Assembly: GCA_030644725.1 (NCBI GenBank)
Contig: CP130629.1
Coordinates: 558,001-622,000, forward strand
DNA: 64,000 bases
DNA from: Candidatus Electrothrix communis
Lineage (GTDB): Bacteria > Desulfobacterota > Desulfobulbia > Desulfobulbales > Desulfobulbaceae
Direction of reading: 5' to 3'
Numbering within the stretch: the stretch's first letter is position 1; the number at the start of each line of letters is the position of its first letter. The notes under the pieces are model-generated. The model ran no database searches. It was given only the letters and a program-made list of their open reading frames with translations, and was not told the DNA's origin. A program made the position numbers and the translations under genes. Positions 48,937-55,427 of the stretch are shown here, one piece after another.

Positions 48937-50025
48937 TTAGGTCGATTGAGTAATCTTGTGCTGTAAAATCAGCTGGTTTAACGCTGTGTCCGGCTGGGCC
49001 TCCATAATAACGCCATAGAGGGGGAGTTGGAGTTCGATATTGCGGAGTTTGACTAGATCCTTTTCCGTACAGAGGAAACAGGTTGCCCCGGCCTGTTGAG
49101 CTTCCGTGATGAGCTGGCGAACAGTCTTGGCAGCATAGGCAAAATGATCTGGAAGGGCACGAAGGGCTATGGGGTTGATGTTGAGTTTATTGAGGGTCTG
49201 GCTGAATCCTTCTGGGCGGGCAATGCCGCAGAAGGCAAAACATCGTTGAGCTGCGAGTTCTTCCGGCTGCACCGGTATTTTTTCCCCGTCTGTTTTTTGC
49301 AGGATAAGGCCAGTAGGGTGATTGCGGCTGAAGAAGACAGGTTTGTCAGGGAATTTTTTATTGAGAATGGTTTTGAAGTTTTCGGCCCGCTCTTGATTTT
49401 GTTCATCTGTGCCGGTCAGGACAAAGGCATGGCATCGCTTGAGGGCATTGATTGGTTCGCGCAGATCTCCTCCAGGAAAGACTCTGGAATTACCGGCAAG
49501 TTTATCCGTATTAAAGAGGATGATATCAAGATCGCGGCGGATGGCCATGTGCTGGAAACCATCATCCAGGAGCAAGATATTTGCGCCCATTTTTACGGCC
49601 TCAGCAGCGGGCAATTTGCGCACGATCCCGGTGAGGACGGGAATGCCGGGCAGGGTCTCTGCAAGCATTCTCGGCTCGTCACCGACATAATCGGCACCGA
49701 GAAAGATCTCTTTGCCGTCGGAGACAATATTGATCCGTTCCTTGGTGGCACCGCCGTATCCTCGGCTAATAATCGCCGGTTTGTACCCGTTTTCCTGAAG
49801 CAGGCGAGCTAGGTACTGCACCATAGGTGTCTTGCCGGTTCCTCCTAGGGTGAGATTGCCGACACTGATCACCGGCACAGCAAAGGGGGTGCTTTTGAAG
49901 AACTTTCTCTGGTAGAGATACTCCCGTAACCGCATGGCGGTGCTGTAGAACGGGGAAAATGGGCGGCCTAGGGCGTAATAGAATGTGGTCATGTTGTTTT
50001 CGTGGTTGCTCAGGGTGTTATACAA
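48937..50025 (-). CDS. lpxK: Tetraacyldisaccharide 4'-kinase
   Basis: A 362-residue (or 351 from ATG 49992) inner-membrane kinase that phosphorylates the lipid A disaccharide. P-loop VGNLTLGGTGKTP (about 54-66) and LLLDDGFQH (about 155) are hallmarks of LpxK. The second ATG gives the usual short N-terminus (MTTFYYALGRPFSPFY); neither start has a clear ribosome site. Confidence 0.92.
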   Translation of the reverse strand: MYNTLSNHENNMTTFYYALGRPFSPFYSTAMRLREYLYQRKFFKSTPFAVPVISVGNLTLGGTGKTPMVQYLARLLQENGYKPAIISRGYGGATKERINIVSDGKEIFLGADYVGDEPRMLAETLPGIPVLTGIVRKLPAAEAVKMGANILLLDDGFQHMAIRRDLDIILFNTDKLAGNSRVFPGGDLREPINALKRCHAFVLTGTDEQNQERAENFKTILNKKFPDKPVFFSRNHPTGLILQKTDGEKIPVQPEELAAQRCFAFCGIARPEGFSQTLNKLNINPIALRALPDHFAYAAKTVRQLITEAQQAGATCFLCTEKDLVKLRNIELQLPLYGVIMEAQPDTALNQLILQHKITQST

Positions 50026-50093
50026 GGAGTAATTTATGAATTGCCCGTACAGGGTGATGGATATGATGATGGGATGTGTTGCGTGATTCCGCA

Positions 50094-50116
50094 GGGGCGC
50101 GGCACGCCGTGCCCCT
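50094..50116. repeat. Palindrome related to the 10647 element
   Basis: GGGGCGCGGC (50094-50103) and GCCGTGCCCC (50106-50115) pair with one G-U, around a two-base loop. It shares the GGCACGCCGTGCC core with 10647-10674, at the 3' end of the FAD oxidoreductase gene. Confidence 0.55.
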
Positions 50117-51228
50117 TATTCAAAGGCCTGAAAGGTGCGCATGAACCTGCGGTCAATCCAATCCTTGATCAGAAAGGAGACTCGCCCGTTAAGAACGATG
50201 GACCATTTCTTGAGGATTCCTGTGCCGTTGCCGAGGTTGAAGATAAGTAGGTATTCTCCCCCCGGTTTAAAGGGGAGTAACCGTTCTCCGGTCAAGGAGG
50301 CCATCAGGTTATGCTTGAGGATGGGGTTCTGGCGGACAGCGTAGACGCCTACCTTATCCAGCGGCGTGTCTTGGAAATCAATACAATCACCGCCGCCAAA
50401 GATATGTTCATGTTTCGTGCTGTTCAGGTAGCGAGTAACCAGCATGCCGCCTTGCGGCCCGGTGGGAATGCCGGAGTCCCCGATCACTCTGTTCGGTTTG
50501 ACGCCCACCGCAATAAAGATGAGGTCAAACTCGTGCGTCGCTCCCTCGGTATCGGTTATTTTCCCGGTTTGTATTTGCTGCACCCGGCTGTTATTGATGA
50601 CCTTGGTGGATCGGGCTGCAAGTGAGGATGAAGCACGACGACGTACGCCCGCCGGATGATGAGGCAAAAGGGAACGCCCGGCAAAGACCGTAATTGCCGG
50701 TGGTTGGATGCCGGGCTCCTGACCGAGTCGCCAAATATTACCGGCGACCTCAACAGCTGACGGGCCGCCACCTACCACCGCGATCTTGATTTTTGTCTTT
50801 GCCCCCAGTTCGAGGATTCGCTGCTTTGCCCGGTAGAGTCCTTCAATGGGTTTGACCGGAAAGATATCGTCAAGTGATCCCTGCACTAACTCTTCCGGCA
50901 CCTGACTCCCGAGATTACAGGAAAGAACATCGTAGGGAACGACCTCACCTGAGCTGAGTCCGACAGTTCGCTCAATAGGGTGGATGCCGATCACCTTGGC
51001 CTGTTTAAACAGACCGCCTTTTTTTTCCACCAGATCACGGGTGGCAAAGCGGATATCCTCGGGACGGTAGGTGCCGCCCAACATTCCCGGTCCCATGCCG
51101 GAATAATAATGATGGGTGTCCGGGCTAATTACCGTGACCTCGAACCCTTTTTCGATAAATTCGTTCAAGTGGGCCAGGGTCAGCATATGAGCATGGCCGC
51201 CGCCAGCAATGACTAATTTTTTGCTCAT
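50116..51228 (-). CDS. FAD-dependent pyridine-nucleotide oxidoreductase (NDH-2/SelD-partner-like)
   Basis: 370 residues. FAD-binding GGGHAHM at residues 9-15, second nucleotide-binding AVVGGGPSAVEVAGN (about 150-165), and FAD-pyrophosphate GGGDCI (about 300). The GGGHAHxxxL opening is seen in NDH-2-type reductases and in oxidoreductase domains found fused to selenide-water dikinase (family knowledge). The gene lies 38 bases after the Sec-containing rhodanese fusion on the same strand, so a sulfur- or selenium-related redox role is plausible (inference). Confidence 0.83.
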   Translation of the reverse strand: MSKKLVIAGGGHAHMLTLAHLNEFIEKGFEVTVISPDTHHYYSGMGPGMLGGTYRPEDIRFATRDLVEKKGGLFKQAKVIGIHPIERTVGLSSGEVVPYDVLSCNLGSQVPEELVQGSLDDIFPVKPIEGLYRAKQRILELGAKTKIKIAVVGGGPSAVEVAGNIWRLGQEPGIQPPAITVFAGRSLLPHHPAGVRRRASSSLAARSTKVINNSRVQQIQTGKITDTEGATHEFDLIFIAVGVKPNRVIGDSGIPTGPQGGMLVTRYLNSTKHEHIFGGGDCIDFQDTPLDKVGVYAVRQNPILKHNLMASLTGERLLPFKPGGEYLLIFNLGNGTGILKKWSIVLNGRVSFLIKDWIDRRFMRTFQAFE

Positions 51229-51266
51229 GACATGTCCTCGTTCAACGCTTTATTTTTTGCTGATGC

Positions 51267-52100
51267 TCATGCAGTTTCGTCCAACAGGTTGCCCAGTAAT
51301 TTTAAATGCGCTCGCTCCTCTTCGGCAATACGCTGAAGTGTTTGTTGTGTGTTTTTTTGAGAGCAGTTGTCCGCAGCCCGCAGGTAGAGGTCAAGGGCCT
51401 GGGCTTCGATGCCCATAGCCAGGGAAATGACCTCGCCTGCAACCTCGAAATCTGTCGGGTAGAGAGCAAGGTATTCCTCAGTGGTCAGGCCGCCTTCCAT
51501 AGACTGAATTGCTGCGCTCCTCTCAAACGCTTCACGGCTCAGGGCGTCCGCACTGATAGTCTGATATTCGGCAAAGAGCCTGTCCTGGTGTTTCACCTCG
51601 ATCATGCTGAGCTTGCCAAACAAGGCCTTCACTTCTACCTGGGTGACCCGTTCCCGCATTGAGGTGTAGAAATCCTGGAGCCCGGCCTCTAAGGCATAGG
51701 CGATCAGGAGAACTTCCTCGATCCCCTCTTTGCCGGAGAACAGGGTCATGCCGGTGTCTTCGGAACCGACAGCGGTGTTGCTGTCCCAGGCTTTGATGCC
51801 GCCAGACATATTGATAACCTGCGAAAAACCTTTCCCTGCGAGCATTTGCGCAGCAACCCGGCTGCGTCCTCCAATAGCTCAGTAAACGACTGTGGGCTTT
51901 TTCGGGTCAAGCTCTTTGCAGCGTTCGGCCAGTTCCGCTACAGGTATGAGCTGAGCTCCAGGTATATGCCCGCTTTTATATTCACCGGGCTGGCGTACAT
52001 CAATGATATTGTAGTCTTCAACGGAAAGGTCGTTCAGGTATTCTTTGGTTTCCGGCGCAGTTAATGATTTTACCGGAGTGAGAAACTGTTTCCAGCGCAT
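51267..52100 (-). CDS. Selenocysteine-containing rhodanese fused to ferritin-like domain
   Basis: Read through one in-frame TGA (51879-51881, codon 74), this is a single 277-residue protein. The rhodanese domain (about 1-105) reads YNIIDVRQPGEYKSGHIPGA, then VVY-U-AIGGRSRVAAQML and INMSGGIKAW. The TGA falls exactly on the catalytic cysteine of the C-x-x-G-x-R-S loop, and the frame, domain fold and spacing continue unbroken. The second half (about 110-277) is a rubrerythrin/ferritin-like four-helix domain with the di-iron pattern E...EVKH...E...EERAH. A SECIS-like hairpin follows the TGA. Start ATG 52100 behind GGTGGGA. The alternative is a nonsense mutation giving two broken genes, unlikely given position and hairpin. 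Confidence 0.8.
51849..51866 (-). promoter_or_regulatory. Bacterial SECIS-like hairpin
   Basis: Read on the minus strand, 12 bases after the TGA codon comes CGCAGC-CGGGTT-GCTGCG: a perfect 6-bp stem with a six-base loop containing GGGU. Distance and GU-bearing loop fit SelB-binding bacterial SECIS elements. Confidence 0.7.
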
Positions 52101-52618
52101 ATTCCCACCACTTTGTTTTGAAGATTAACGAATGCACAGTGACGTGCCGAGCAGTTGGCGTGAGTCTTCCTACCGAAGATTGCCGAAAGAAAAGAAGAAG
52201 GCAAAGGAGGTAGTTTGGTGTTGCCTTGGTTTTATGGATCACGAAGGTTGTATGTCGTATATATCAGGCAGGAGGTCAAGAATTAATCTTAAGGTGTGGC
52301 GCGATCTCTGTCAAGGAATTATTTATCGCTTTCGTTGGGAGAGGGAAACGAAGGGCAAACCCTGCTTATGTAACGAAAGATTTTATATAAAAATAACAGG
52401 TGCTCCAACTTGGGGTACTCGCTCAATTTTTATGCTTTGTTGTGACCGCAGGTCATGGCCGCACTAGAGGGTGGGTGTTTTTTAAACAATATATCTTGTG
52501 AGTTCGATGAAATAGATTGACGTTTTAGATGAAGTTACTGTTAATTTACCTAGGTAAATTAACTGGCGGCAGTACTACATTTTCTTTTCTGCCGCCGCAA
52601 AACTGCTGGGAGGACAGG
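52101..52618. other. Intergenic region without recognisable gene
   Basis: About 520 bases between the divergent selenoprotein gene and the first CSLREA gene. An open frame at 52132-52467 is Arg/Cys-rich, without ribosome site or recognisable domain, and is not accepted. The last 30 bases carry the GCCGCCGCAAAACTGCTGGG block shared with the paralogous genes downstream. Confidence 0.5.
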
Positions 52619-53824
52619 ATGAAAAAACAACAGAAGTACTTTTTTACTTTGGTCGGATTGCTTGCATTGGTACCAAGTCAAGGGCAGGCGGCTGAAATTA
52701 TTGTAGGTGCGGACGGTGTTTGCACCTTGGCTGAGGCTATTACCTCGGCCAATAATGACGACGCTGCCGGAAACGGTTGTGTTGATGGTTTTGGGCACGA
52801 TATCATCACTCTGGAGACAGATATCCTGCTTGAAGAAGGCGAGGATGCACGACCGCCGATTACCACCTCGGTTACCATTGAAGGCCAGGGACACACCATT
52901 GACGGCAACGGTAAGATTGGGTATGTCCTTAAAATAAGCAGAGCGATATATGACGATGTTGATCCCTGCATCGGCGGCGACTTAACCCTGAATAATGCCA
53001 CGATTACCGGCGGGAATCATGCGCACACAGGAGATGTGACCACAGGAATGCTCAACAACGGCGGAGGGATCACCAATGCCTGTTTGGGTACAGTGACGTT
53101 GAACAATGTCACGGTTAGCGAAAACACTGCATTAGGCAACGGCGGTGGAATATTCAATGCTCCAGGGGCTGATCTCACATTGAACAACTCGACGATCAGT
53201 GGAAATCTTGCAGAAGGTAACGGTGGTGGTGGAGTTTACAATAATGATGGTTACGTCACGCTGAGCAACTCCACAATTAGCGACAACATTGCGGCGGGCG
53301 AGGGCGGGGGGATTTGCTCGGTTTGGCTCTACGGCCCCCTCCCCGCTCTCATCGGTTCATCAGTCGTGCTGAACAATTCGATTATCAGCGGCAATACAGC
53401 CTCTACCGGTAATGAAATTTATCAGTCTAAAGTTCCTGTCTACGCAGATAACTATAATCTTTTCGGTCACAGCAACGAGAGCGATGCTGCGGCATTCTCA
53501 AGCTTCGCGCCTGGAGAGAACGATGTTAATGCAACAGATGGTGGCATTAATGGTATTCTCATTTCTACAGCTCTGTCCGCTATCATTGATTCCTTGGCCG
53601 ATAACGGTGGGTCCACTCTGACTCATGCCCTAGTTCCGGGCAGCCCGGCCATTGACTTAGATCCAAATAATGTAGAATGCAGCACCGGTCTGGCTACGGA
53701 TCAGCGTGGCGAACCTCGTCCTGTTGGTGCAGGGTGTGATGCGGGTTCCTATGAAGTGAACATGGTTTCCAGTAACGGCAATGCTTTTCTGCCAACTCTC
53801 TATTTTCTTCTGCTTCGGAATTGA
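52619..53824 (+). CDS. Secreted CSLREA / choice-of-anchor Q beta-helix protein, paralogue 1
   Basis: About 401 residues. The signal peptide reads MKKQQKYFFTLVGLLALVPS...AAE. A CSLREA-type segment (CTLAEAITSANNDD) and repeats of LNNSTISGNxAxGxGGG follow, predicted to form a right-handed parallel beta-helix. A choice-of-anchor Q domain near the C-terminus (GSPAIDLDP...CSTG...DQRGEPRP...CDAGSYE) precedes the short hydrophobic end FLPTLYFLLLRN. It starts at 52619 after GGGAGGACAGG, not at the upstream in-frame ATG 52529. Function unknown; cell-surface or adhesin-like. Confidence 0.82.
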   Translation: MKKQQKYFFTLVGLLALVPSQGQAAEIIVGADGVCTLAEAITSANNDDAAGNGCVDGFGHDIITLETDILLEEGEDARPPITTSVTIEGQGHTIDGNGKIGYVLKISRAIYDDVDPCIGGDLTLNNATITGGNHAHTGDVTTGMLNNGGGITNACLGTVTLNNVTVSENTALGNGGGIFNAPGADLTLNNSTISGNLAEGNGGGGVYNNDGYVTLSNSTISDNIAAGEGGGICSVWLYGPLPALIGSSVVLNNSIISGNTASTGNEIYQSKVPVYADNYNLFGHSNESDAAAFSSFAPGENDVNATDGGINGILISTALSAIIDSLADNGGSTLTHALVPGSPAIDLDPNNVECSTGLATDQRGEPRPVGAGCDAGSYEVNMVSSNGNAFLPTLYFLLLRN

Positions 53825-53939: not shown

Positions 53940-55427
53940 ATGAAAAAACAACGGAAGTACTTATTTACTTTGGTCGGATTGCTTGCATTGGCACCAGGCC
54001 AAGGGCAGGCGGCTGAGATCTTCGTGGATGCAGGCGGCACCTGCACCTTGGCTGATGCTATCAGATCAGCCAACGAAAATGTAAATTGGGGTAGGTGTGT
54101 TGGCGTTGGAGAATACGGGGATGACACCATCTATCTTGAAACCGATGTTCTTCTTGGTTCGGGAGAGGACGAACGACCACCGATTTTGTCTTATGAAAAT
54201 TCAAGTGAAAAAGAATATACAGGAACTGTCACCATTGAAGGGCAGGGGCATGTCATTGATGGCAACGGTGAAGATGGGTACGTGTTGAAAATAAGCACAG
54301 GATGGCTTGATGAGAATCGTTGCATCGGTGGAGAGTTAACTTTAAACAATACTACGATTACCGGTGGAAACCATGCCCATCCGGGGGATGTGACCACAGG
54401 AAAACTCAACAACGGTGGAGGGATCACCAATGCCTGTTTTGGCAGGGTGACGTTGAACAATTCCACGGTCAGTGGAAACATTGCCTTAGGTAATGGTGGG
54501 GGGATTTTTAACGCACCGTGGGCCTCTCTCACCCTGAATAACTCGACAGTGAGCGGAAACCTTGCTGAAGGTATTGGAGGGGGAGGAGTCTATAATAACG
54601 ATGGTGCAGTTGTTCTGAATAACTCGACAGTGAGCGATAATATTGCAGTGGGTAAAGGTGGGGGGATCTGTAGTGAATGGCGTTACGGCCCCAATCCTGC
54701 TTGGATTGCCTTTGTTCTTGGTATTGATGTTTCAGTTAGCATAAATAGCTCTCTTGTTAGCGGCAATACAGCCTCTACTGGGAATGAAGTCTATGAGTCA
54801 GCTGTTCCCGTTTATGCAGACAGCTTCAACCTCTTTGGTCACAGTGGTGAGATTGAGACGGAAGCATTTTTTGGCTTCTTACCTGGAGATAGCGATATTG
54901 ATGCCACCAGCGACGGCACATCTCCAACTTTTTTGTCTGCCATTCTCAGCCCCTTGGCCAACAACGGCGGTAAGACCATGACTCATGCCTTGGTTGAAGA
55001 GAGTCCGGCTGTTGATCTGGATGAGAACTGTAGCACCGGACTTCCTGAAGACCAACGTGGCGAAATCCGCCCTGGAATTGGTTGCGATGCGGGATCTTTT
55101 GAATTTATCTTAGGGTCCGACACTGCGATCCTAGATGAAATAGCATTGGTTGTTAGTTCGCTTGATTCTGAGGAGGCTTTCGATAATAAAAAAAAGCAAA
55201 AGGCTCTGGTTAATCAGATCGATGCTACTATTGTGCTGGTTGATGAGGGGCTCTATGCAGAGGCTCTTGGTAAACTTCAGAATAGCATTCTCGGTAAGAC
55301 AGATGGCTGTGTTGAGTCAGAATTAGGAGAACCGGATAAGAATGATTGGATTAGAGAATGCTCAAGCCAGGTGGAGGTGTACGATCTTGTCCAGGAGGCC
55401 ATAGGCATTTTGGAGGAGCAGATGTAG
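53940..55427 (+). CDS. Secreted CSLREA / choice-of-anchor Q beta-helix protein, paralogue 2, with helical C-terminal domain
   Basis: 495 residues. Signal peptide and N-terminus nearly match paralogue 1 (MKKQRKYLFTLVGLLALAP). CSLREA-like CTLADAIRSANENV, beta-helix repeats and an anchor-Q domain (DQRGEIRP..CDAGSFEF) follow. Unlike the others it lacks the FLxxxYxLLL end and instead carries about 100 helical residues (QIDATIVLVDEGLYAEALGKLQNSILGK...) resembling the FIMAH domain of surface proteins. A terminator follows at 55464. Confidence 0.82.
   Translation: MKKQRKYLFTLVGLLALAPGQGQAAEIFVDAGGTCTLADAIRSANENVNWGRCVGVGEYGDDTIYLETDVLLGSGEDERPPILSYENSSEKEYTGTVTIEGQGHVIDGNGEDGYVLKISTGWLDENRCIGGELTLNNTTITGGNHAHPGDVTTGKLNNGGGITNACFGRVTLNNSTVSGNIALGNGGGIFNAPWASLTLNNSTVSGNLAEGIGGGGVYNNDGAVVLNNSTVSDNIAVGKGGGICSEWRYGPNPAWIAFVLGIDVSVSINSSLVSGNTASTGNEVYESAVPVYADSFNLFGHSGEIETEAFFGFLPGDSDIDATSDGTSPTFLSAILSPLANNGGKTMTHALVEESPAVDLDENCSTGLPEDQRGEIRPGIGCDAGSFEFILGSDTAILDEIALVVSSLDSEEAFDNKKKQKALVNQIDATIVLVDEGLYAEALGKLQNSILGKTDGCVESELGEPDKNDWIRECSSQVEVYDLVQEAIGILEEQM

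Follow-up and report, generated by a model that had tools for sequence, protein, structure and literature searches.

A predicted selenoprotein of Candidatus Electrothrix communis that joins a rhodanese domain to a rubrerythrin-type di-iron domain

Results

A fusion gene with a single internal TGA codon

The window, that is, the whole stretch of 64,000 nucleotides analysed here, belongs to a host genome that consists of a single contig of 4.85 Mb. A gene encoding a rhodanese/di-iron fusion protein was identified on its minus strand, together with a hairpin inside the gene and a flavoprotein gene behind it (Table 1). The fusion gene starts with ATG, holds one internal TGA at codon 74 and has TGA as its terminal codon as well. 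The initial annotation had placed this single TGA at the position of the catalytic cysteine in the rhodanese loop and had followed the frame past it into a di-iron domain; both points are borne out by the codon position and by Pfam, which assigns a Rhodanese and then a Rubrerythrin domain. The split into two that it had expected of ORF finders is seen with the standard code, under which the frame falls into ORFs of 73 and 192 aa. The residues M1 and W3 are each conserved in 84 of the 85 closer homologues, and the nearest named homologues come from Candidatus Electrothrix aarhusensis (84%) and Ca. E. gigas (81%). A second selenocysteine (Sec) was suspected from a second TGA in the matched stretch and was rejected, this TGA being the last codon, a terminal stop, in 21/21 such loci.

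Table 1 Features of the fusion gene and its partner in the window
Feature	Position	Strand	Details
Rhodanese/di-iron fusion selenoprotein gene (predicted)	51267..52100	-	277 aa and stop TGA (51267-51269)
In-frame TGA, codon 74, predicted selenocysteine	51879..51881	-	context VVY-U-AIGGRSR
Rhodanese domain (PF00581)	51780..52046	-	residues 19-107; E 7.7e-22; active-site loop U-A-I-G-G-R-S
SECIS-like hairpin	51849..51866	-	stem CGCAGC/GCTGCG (51861-51866 with 51849-51854), loop CGGGTT, 12 nt past the TGA
Rubrerythrin-type di-iron four-helix domain (PF02915)	51285..51716	-	residues 129-272; E 1.2e-9
NDH-2/FSP1-like flavoprotein gene, probable operon partner	50116..51228	-	370 aa, 38 bases past the fusion-gene stop

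Domain architecture of the fusion protein

The rhodanese assignment scores 78 bits (cut-off 22.2), and the active-site loop begins at the catalytic residue, where codon 74 lies. The loop residues G77, R79, and S80 are invariant in all 115 full-length homologues. The second domain scores 39 bits (cut-off 22.8), and its E138, E168, H171, E232, E262, and H265 are likewise invariant in 115/115. This order of ligands (E, ExxH, E, ExxH) is what we take to be the di-iron set of rubrerythrins. The rubredoxin domain of classical two-domain rubrerythrin is absent by sequence and Pfam, the fusion protein stopping after the helical domain. Position 74 is the sole conserved Cys/Sec column among the 115 full-length homologues; with no second conserved Cys in the selenoprotein, a resolving thiol, if one is needed, would have to come from elsewhere.

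The structure predicted from 66 sequences (mean pLDDT 83.7, pTM 0.74) consists of a domain of alternating strands and helices and a four-helix bundle, connected by a low-confidence joint at about residues 107-114. The best 50 rows of the Foldseek search are all rhodanese or related sulfur-transfer entries. A second structural comparison matched the first part of the protein to rhodanese domains (Z up to 17.5) and the second part to ferritin-like chains (Z up to 13.8), with no entry titled rubrerythrin among its best 50 rows. For the best 60 of the 64 solved chains, the top stretch of each falls within one domain only.

Sec and Cys alternate at residue 74

We compared 134 loci, 133 of which gave a homologue match. 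The search for homologues with Cys or Sec at position 74, which the initial annotation had proposed, returned U or C in 133/133 homologous loci and nothing else; this includes six rhodanese matches (L090-L095), each with C, that are either weak or fragmentary. The ratio of Sec to Cys in this set gives no prevalence, because part of the loci were picked with a preference for TGA matches. Two more genomes of the genus, and dozens of others, likewise have TGA at this residue. Rather than carrying Cys throughout and no conserved hairpin, the outcome that had been named as speaking against a selenoprotein, relatives carry TGA at this position together with a conserved hairpin.

Across the phylum, a match at E 1e-45 was found in 80 of the 395 sampled genomes, some with the TGA and some without, and plasmid records gave no match at E 1e-20. 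Within the genus, Sec is encoded in the window genome and two further genomes and Cys in four, and the incomplete genome G079 gave no match. All four Cys genomes of the genus have selB and tRNA-Sec, the latter being present in 6/6 genomes of the genus tested. On the tree, 13 changes between Sec and Cys are needed, 8 of them on well-supported branches and some inside the genus Electrothrix. Desulfospira joergensenii DSM 10085 (L069), a named strain in culture, also carries the Sec form, whose chemistry is therefore testable; Desulfofustis glycolicus (L068) carries the Cys form. A Cys-form operon in bins of the planctomycete Ca. Scalindua (L057, L059, and L060) clusters with desulfobacterial sequences on the tree, which suggests that these copies were acquired by horizontal transfer.

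A SECIS-like hairpin tracks the Sec form

The perfect hairpin that the initial annotation had noted 12 bases past the TGA was recovered, its stem starting exactly 12 nt after the codon. A bSECIS element is expected to hold a G in its apical loop, and the hairpin just past the UGA of the fusion gene has such a loop. For the comparison among genes, loci with matches of at least 150 bits and enough downstream DNA were collected (126 loci) and 10 duplicates were removed, leaving 116 genes, 75 with TGA and 41 with Cys. The stem was scored in a fixed register that pairs positions +13 to +18 with +25 to +30 after codon 74. With related sequences treated as separate, here and in the GCT and covariation counts below, at least five of the six pairs are formed in 69/75 Sec genes versus 7/41 Cys genes, and all six in 43/75 versus 3/41. 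Several Sec genes without the stem in the fixed register have one in a shifted position, and a free register (stem of at least 6 bp, loop at +14 to +28) finds 67/75 Sec and 4/41 Cys genes.

Codon choice and covariation were then considered on the same genes. Where the encoded peptide RSRVAA is identical, the stem-pairing Ala codon is GCT in 41 of 46 Sec genes versus 3 of 12 Cys genes (Fisher p 3e-5); elsewhere in these genes GCT accounts for 271/1752 Ala codons in the Sec form and 143/1024 in the Cys form. The stem is paired in 91% of the cells of the Sec alignment, and 11 cells are changed on both sides of a pair, a value reached by 0/500 shuffles. Two other measures are not above chance, namely the pairs changed on both sides (2, matched by 158/500 shuffles) and the further pair types (6, matched by 40/500). 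When the stem is slid by -3 in the Sec alignment, the covariation score is 0.101 versus 0.112 and the paired cells are 71% versus 91%. The Cys alignment, in which 61% of cells are paired, shows no covariation excess.

Relatedness was taken into account by independent pairs drawn on a tree of 115 proteins built by a quick method, with 8 supported independent Sec/Cys pairs. On average, the stem follows Sec in 5.1 of them, goes the opposite way in 0.0 (once at most per pairing) and shows no difference in 2.9; the median p is only 0.06 because just 8 supported independent pairs are available. The GCT codon goes with Sec in 5.7, the opposite way in 0.0 and shows no difference in 2.3 (median p 0.03). 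We consider the hairpin to be more than chance, because the TGA recurs at the same residue across genomes and the stem tracks Sec versus Cys.

Folding energy separates the two forms weakly. The minimum free energy (MFE) of the 48 nt after the window's own TGA is not below that of 300 synonymous shuffles (z = +0.9), and the mean z over the 48 nt after the codon is -1.0 for Sec and -0.3 for Cys genes (Mann-Whitney p 2e-4). Direct stem counting separates Sec from Cys more sharply than free energy does, and the hairpin signal comes from the comparison among genes, not from the stability of the window sequence. The Rfam SECIS model found no match in the host genome and none in 14 control genomes either, which makes that search uninformative; an Rfam scan of 50000-53000 returned only a chance lncRNA match.

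Remnants of the stem are seen in Cys genes of the genus. The Cys gene of Ca. Electrothrix gigas (L026 = L086) keeps 6/6 stem pairs 12 nt past its Cys codon with an altered loop, and two other Cys genes of the genus keep 5 and 3 pairs. These remnants look like the decay of a SECIS element that was once used, and the E. gigas stem looks like the fossil of a recent switch from Sec to Cys, a direction that we infer. The hairpin seems to decay after such a switch.

Selenocysteine machinery

The initial annotation would have been undermined by a genome devoid of selB and selC. The host genome holds selB (374 bits, cut-off 242) and a tRNA-Sec with anticodon tca (74.8 bits), as well as selA (628 bits) and selD (342 bits), the last with one internal TGA of its own near the start (TCGUAAKIG). 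A second selD-like gene without TGA lies at G000:C1:1480453-1481394 (L018, L019) and reaches 255.9 bits in all, above the selD cut-off.

At least 57 genomes carry the TGA form, and 56 of the 57, examined at the locus, show U at position 74. Of these 57 listed genomes, 46 have full-length selB (E 1e-65). C-terminal selB fragments occur in four of the 11 listed genomes without full-length selB (G105, G006, G153, and G154), and tRNA-Sec was found in nine of these 11, with no match in G153 and G156. In the class as a whole, selB is present in 215/257 genomes.

The partner flavoprotein

The closest solved structures to the product of the downstream gene are the NADH dehydrogenase-like YjlD, followed by FSP1-type chains. 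Against TIGR03169 (Nterm_to_SelD) it scores 253 bits, below the cut-off of 310. Its Cys282, in the motif GGGDC, is invariant in the 83 sequences above 300 bits (duplicates included), and the other Cys column, 104, is occupied in 53/83.

Taking as closer family the loci that score 220 bits or more and extend for 900 nt or more downstream, the flavoprotein gene lies directly downstream in 67 of 81 (45/56 with Sec, 22/25 with Cys), as it does in one of the 28 distant homologues. As it is not directly downstream in 14/81 closer and 27/28 distant loci, the flavoprotein cannot be a strict requirement throughout the family. In seven distant homologues (L135, L136, L137, L139, L140, L141, and L145) a flavoprotein homologue lies upstream, about 2 kb from end to start. 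A wider conserved cluster was sought in 38 loci (L053-L089 and the window), where only the flavoprotein recurs in most (29/38); frames antisense to the fusion and flavoprotein genes also recur in these loci.

Discussion

Decoding of codon 74

Codon 74 is almost certainly read as selenocysteine, as far as genomic comparison can tell, and Sec would actually be inserted at residue 74. If the TGA were instead a true stop, through a pseudogene or a sequencing error, two separate polypeptides would result, as the split of the frame under the standard code would have it. This is scarcely credible when a TGA stands at that codon in 75 non-identical loci, aligned with Cys elsewhere, and the hairpin is mostly kept. 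Equally hard to believe is a recoding of the TGA to another residue, Trp or Cys, for which no supporting point was found: the fusion gene uses TGA as its own terminator, the genome has a tRNA-Sec with anticodon tca along with selA, selB, and selD, and a hairpin accompanies the TGA-bearing genes. The sequences themselves show TGA alternating with Cys, a hairpin associated with Sec, the genes of the Sec machinery, two domains with all their ligands and a conserved gene pair. Taken jointly, the reading as a selenoprotein and as a two-domain redox enzyme is very probably correct.

Possible function of the two-gene system

In the mechanism that we propose, UGA74 would be decoded by SelB and tRNA-Sec under the direction of the hairpin 12 nt downstream. 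The resulting selenolate would replace the rhodanese Cys and accept sulfane sulfur, as a Se-S persulfide, from persulfide, polysulfide or thiosulfate, while peroxide reduction or O2 handling would fall to the rubrerythrin-type di-iron site and the downstream flavoprotein would supply electrons from NAD(P)H. Together, the fusion protein and the flavoprotein would provide persulfide- and peroxide-reducing protection for sulfide-loaded cells meeting oxygen. A sulfane-sulfur acceptor, a peroxide-type di-iron site and a flavoprotein donor fit persulfide/peroxide reduction in sulfide-rich cells that live at the oxic boundary, and our best guess would be a persulfide reductase or sulfurtransferase that is fed by the flavoprotein and has peroxide removal coupled to it. 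What we infer from these parts is the substrate, how the electrons travel and how the two domains are coupled, and the detailed mechanism is a tentative proposal that may well prove wrong. Replacing the catalytic thiol by selenium looks like an upgrade. It is possible, if doubtful, that a new selenoenzyme system is at hand, in which an NAD(P)H-fed flavoprotein serves one chain joining Sec-persulfide chemistry to di-iron peroxide reduction, persulfide (or peroxide) would be reduced across two catalytic centres, and the choice between selenium and sulfur would have changed repeatedly in sulfate reducers and cable bacteria, leaving relic hairpins behind.

Two other roles have to be weighed. The fusion protein could be a selenium-delivery factor, its rhodanese domain binding selenium and, together with the flavoprotein, supplying selenide to SelD; the nearest family of the flavoprotein is indeed TIGR03169, whose members are by name N-terminal to SelD, and selB is common in the class and in the listed TGA-form genomes (215/257 and 46/57). 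The flavoprotein stays below the cut-off of that family, however, and the di-iron ligands would be left without a role. In the three Scalindua bins with the Cys-form operon, neither selD over the cut-off (0/3, with one sub-cut-off match of 102 bits) nor tRNA-Sec (0/3) was found. As these are metagenome bins the absences are no proof; the other nine Cys-form genomes checked have selD over the cut-off in 9/9 and tRNA-Sec in 8/9. The system can thus probably operate without a selenium pathway, and the three bins make sulfur/redox chemistry more likely than selenium supply. Selenium delivery was set aside on these bins as the role of the system, and we regard it as very unlikely. The initial annotation had suggested sulfur or selenium transfer joined to iron or peroxide chemistry; to this the full di-iron ligand set can now be added, the coupling stands as a conjecture, and the selenium-supply part is disfavoured by Scalindua. 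A plain sulfurtransferase, in which Sec just speeds the transfer and the di-iron domain serves iron handling (ferroxidase or storage) or stability rather than peroxide chemistry, agrees with the ferritins among the structural matches and with weak matches of 31/66 members to the encapsulin ferritin-like cargo EncB. With the second domain assigned to Rubrerythrin by Pfam and the partner flavoprotein pointing to electron transfer, this role is unlikely too, if less so than selenium delivery.

Relation to known systems

Several known proteins share part of this architecture. NADH-dependent persulfide reductase (Npsr, 3nt6; CoADR-RHD) likewise couples a flavoprotein to a rhodanese (fold match Z 16). 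In Npsr a flavoprotein of the CoA-disulfide reductase type shares its chain with the rhodanese, a di-iron domain is lacking, and Cys is used, not Sec. Compared with this one-chain CoA-disulfide reductase and rhodanese, the flavoprotein of the window is encoded by a separate gene and has Cys columns only at 104 and 282. PRF, the persulfide dioxygenase-rhodanese fusion (5ve3), joins a rhodanese to a second sulfur enzyme (fold match Z 14.8). Its dioxygenase is of the mono-iron metallo-beta-lactamase type, not a di-iron helical bundle. Rubrerythrin/erythrin (PF02915) has the four-helix di-iron domain and the ligand set in common with the window protein, which differs by its N-terminal Sec rhodanese and by the lack of a rubredoxin domain. 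TsoB, a rhodanese/DsbD fusion-like protein (NF045694), is also a rhodanese-containing fusion selenoprotein, but its partner is DsbD-like and it has two Sec; the window protein scores 17.7 against the NF045694 cut-off of 805. Against NF041203 (rhodanese-related (seleno)protein) it scores 34.8 (cut-off 115), and no NCBIfam model matches it at its own cut-off. Among the 22 families to which the 66 members have matches, not one carries a rhodanese/rubrerythrin fusion in its name.

That Sec-containing rhodanese-related proteins are known, as the initial annotation had said, is supported by a prokaryotic selenoprotein inventory (2026), in the available part of which five Sec rhodanese forms appear, UxxG being the motif of two (PMC13188914). 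The rhodanese-like forms 2 and 4 in its Table 1 combine PF00581 with a Sec UxxG motif, like U-A-I-G here; the words 'ferritin' and 'rubrerythrin' have 0 occurrences in the available review text, so that these forms are set apart from the window protein by description only (PMC13188914). Form 2 (accession MBM9537886.1), compared by motif only, agrees with the window protein in UxxG and could be this very protein, entered there under its rhodanese domain alone. A Sec rhodanese/rubrerythrin fusion was not found described in the literature searched; an earlier mention is possible in the Olavius selenoproteome, which lay outside the search. The fusion was likewise not found in the available parts of PMC13188914, PMC9312934, PMC5029168, PMC2398784, PMC1794560, PMC8318568, and PMC1088965, nor in that of PMC2702500, whose supplementary list of 31 selenoproteins was outside the search, and PMC8346489, retrieved with the terms rhodanese, rubrerythrin, and fusion, is in its available part unrelated to a fusion selenoprotein.

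The fusion adds to the Sec rhodaneses a widespread two-domain architecture that recurs in many sulfate-reducing relatives. It also adds a probable selenoprotein for (probable) cable bacteria, a group for which a literature search with selenocysteine gave only plant-symbiont work. The series of Sec and Cys forms in one genus is a natural system for studying what makes a lineage retain selenium or give it up.

Other genes around the locus

In the window and in L024, the flavoprotein gene is followed by lpxK (lipid A 4'-kinase; 48937-50025, minus strand in the window); it was not found at the other loci compared, many of them cut off before the position where it would lie. On the other side of the fusion gene, the ORFs at 52529-53824 and 53940-55427, both on the plus strand, are nearly identical in their N-terminal region (KKQ-KYxFTLVGLLAL) and alike over much of the remainder. 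The former matches a pectate-lyase-like adhesive domain, and the two appear to have arisen by tandem duplication of a gene for a surface beta-helix protein.
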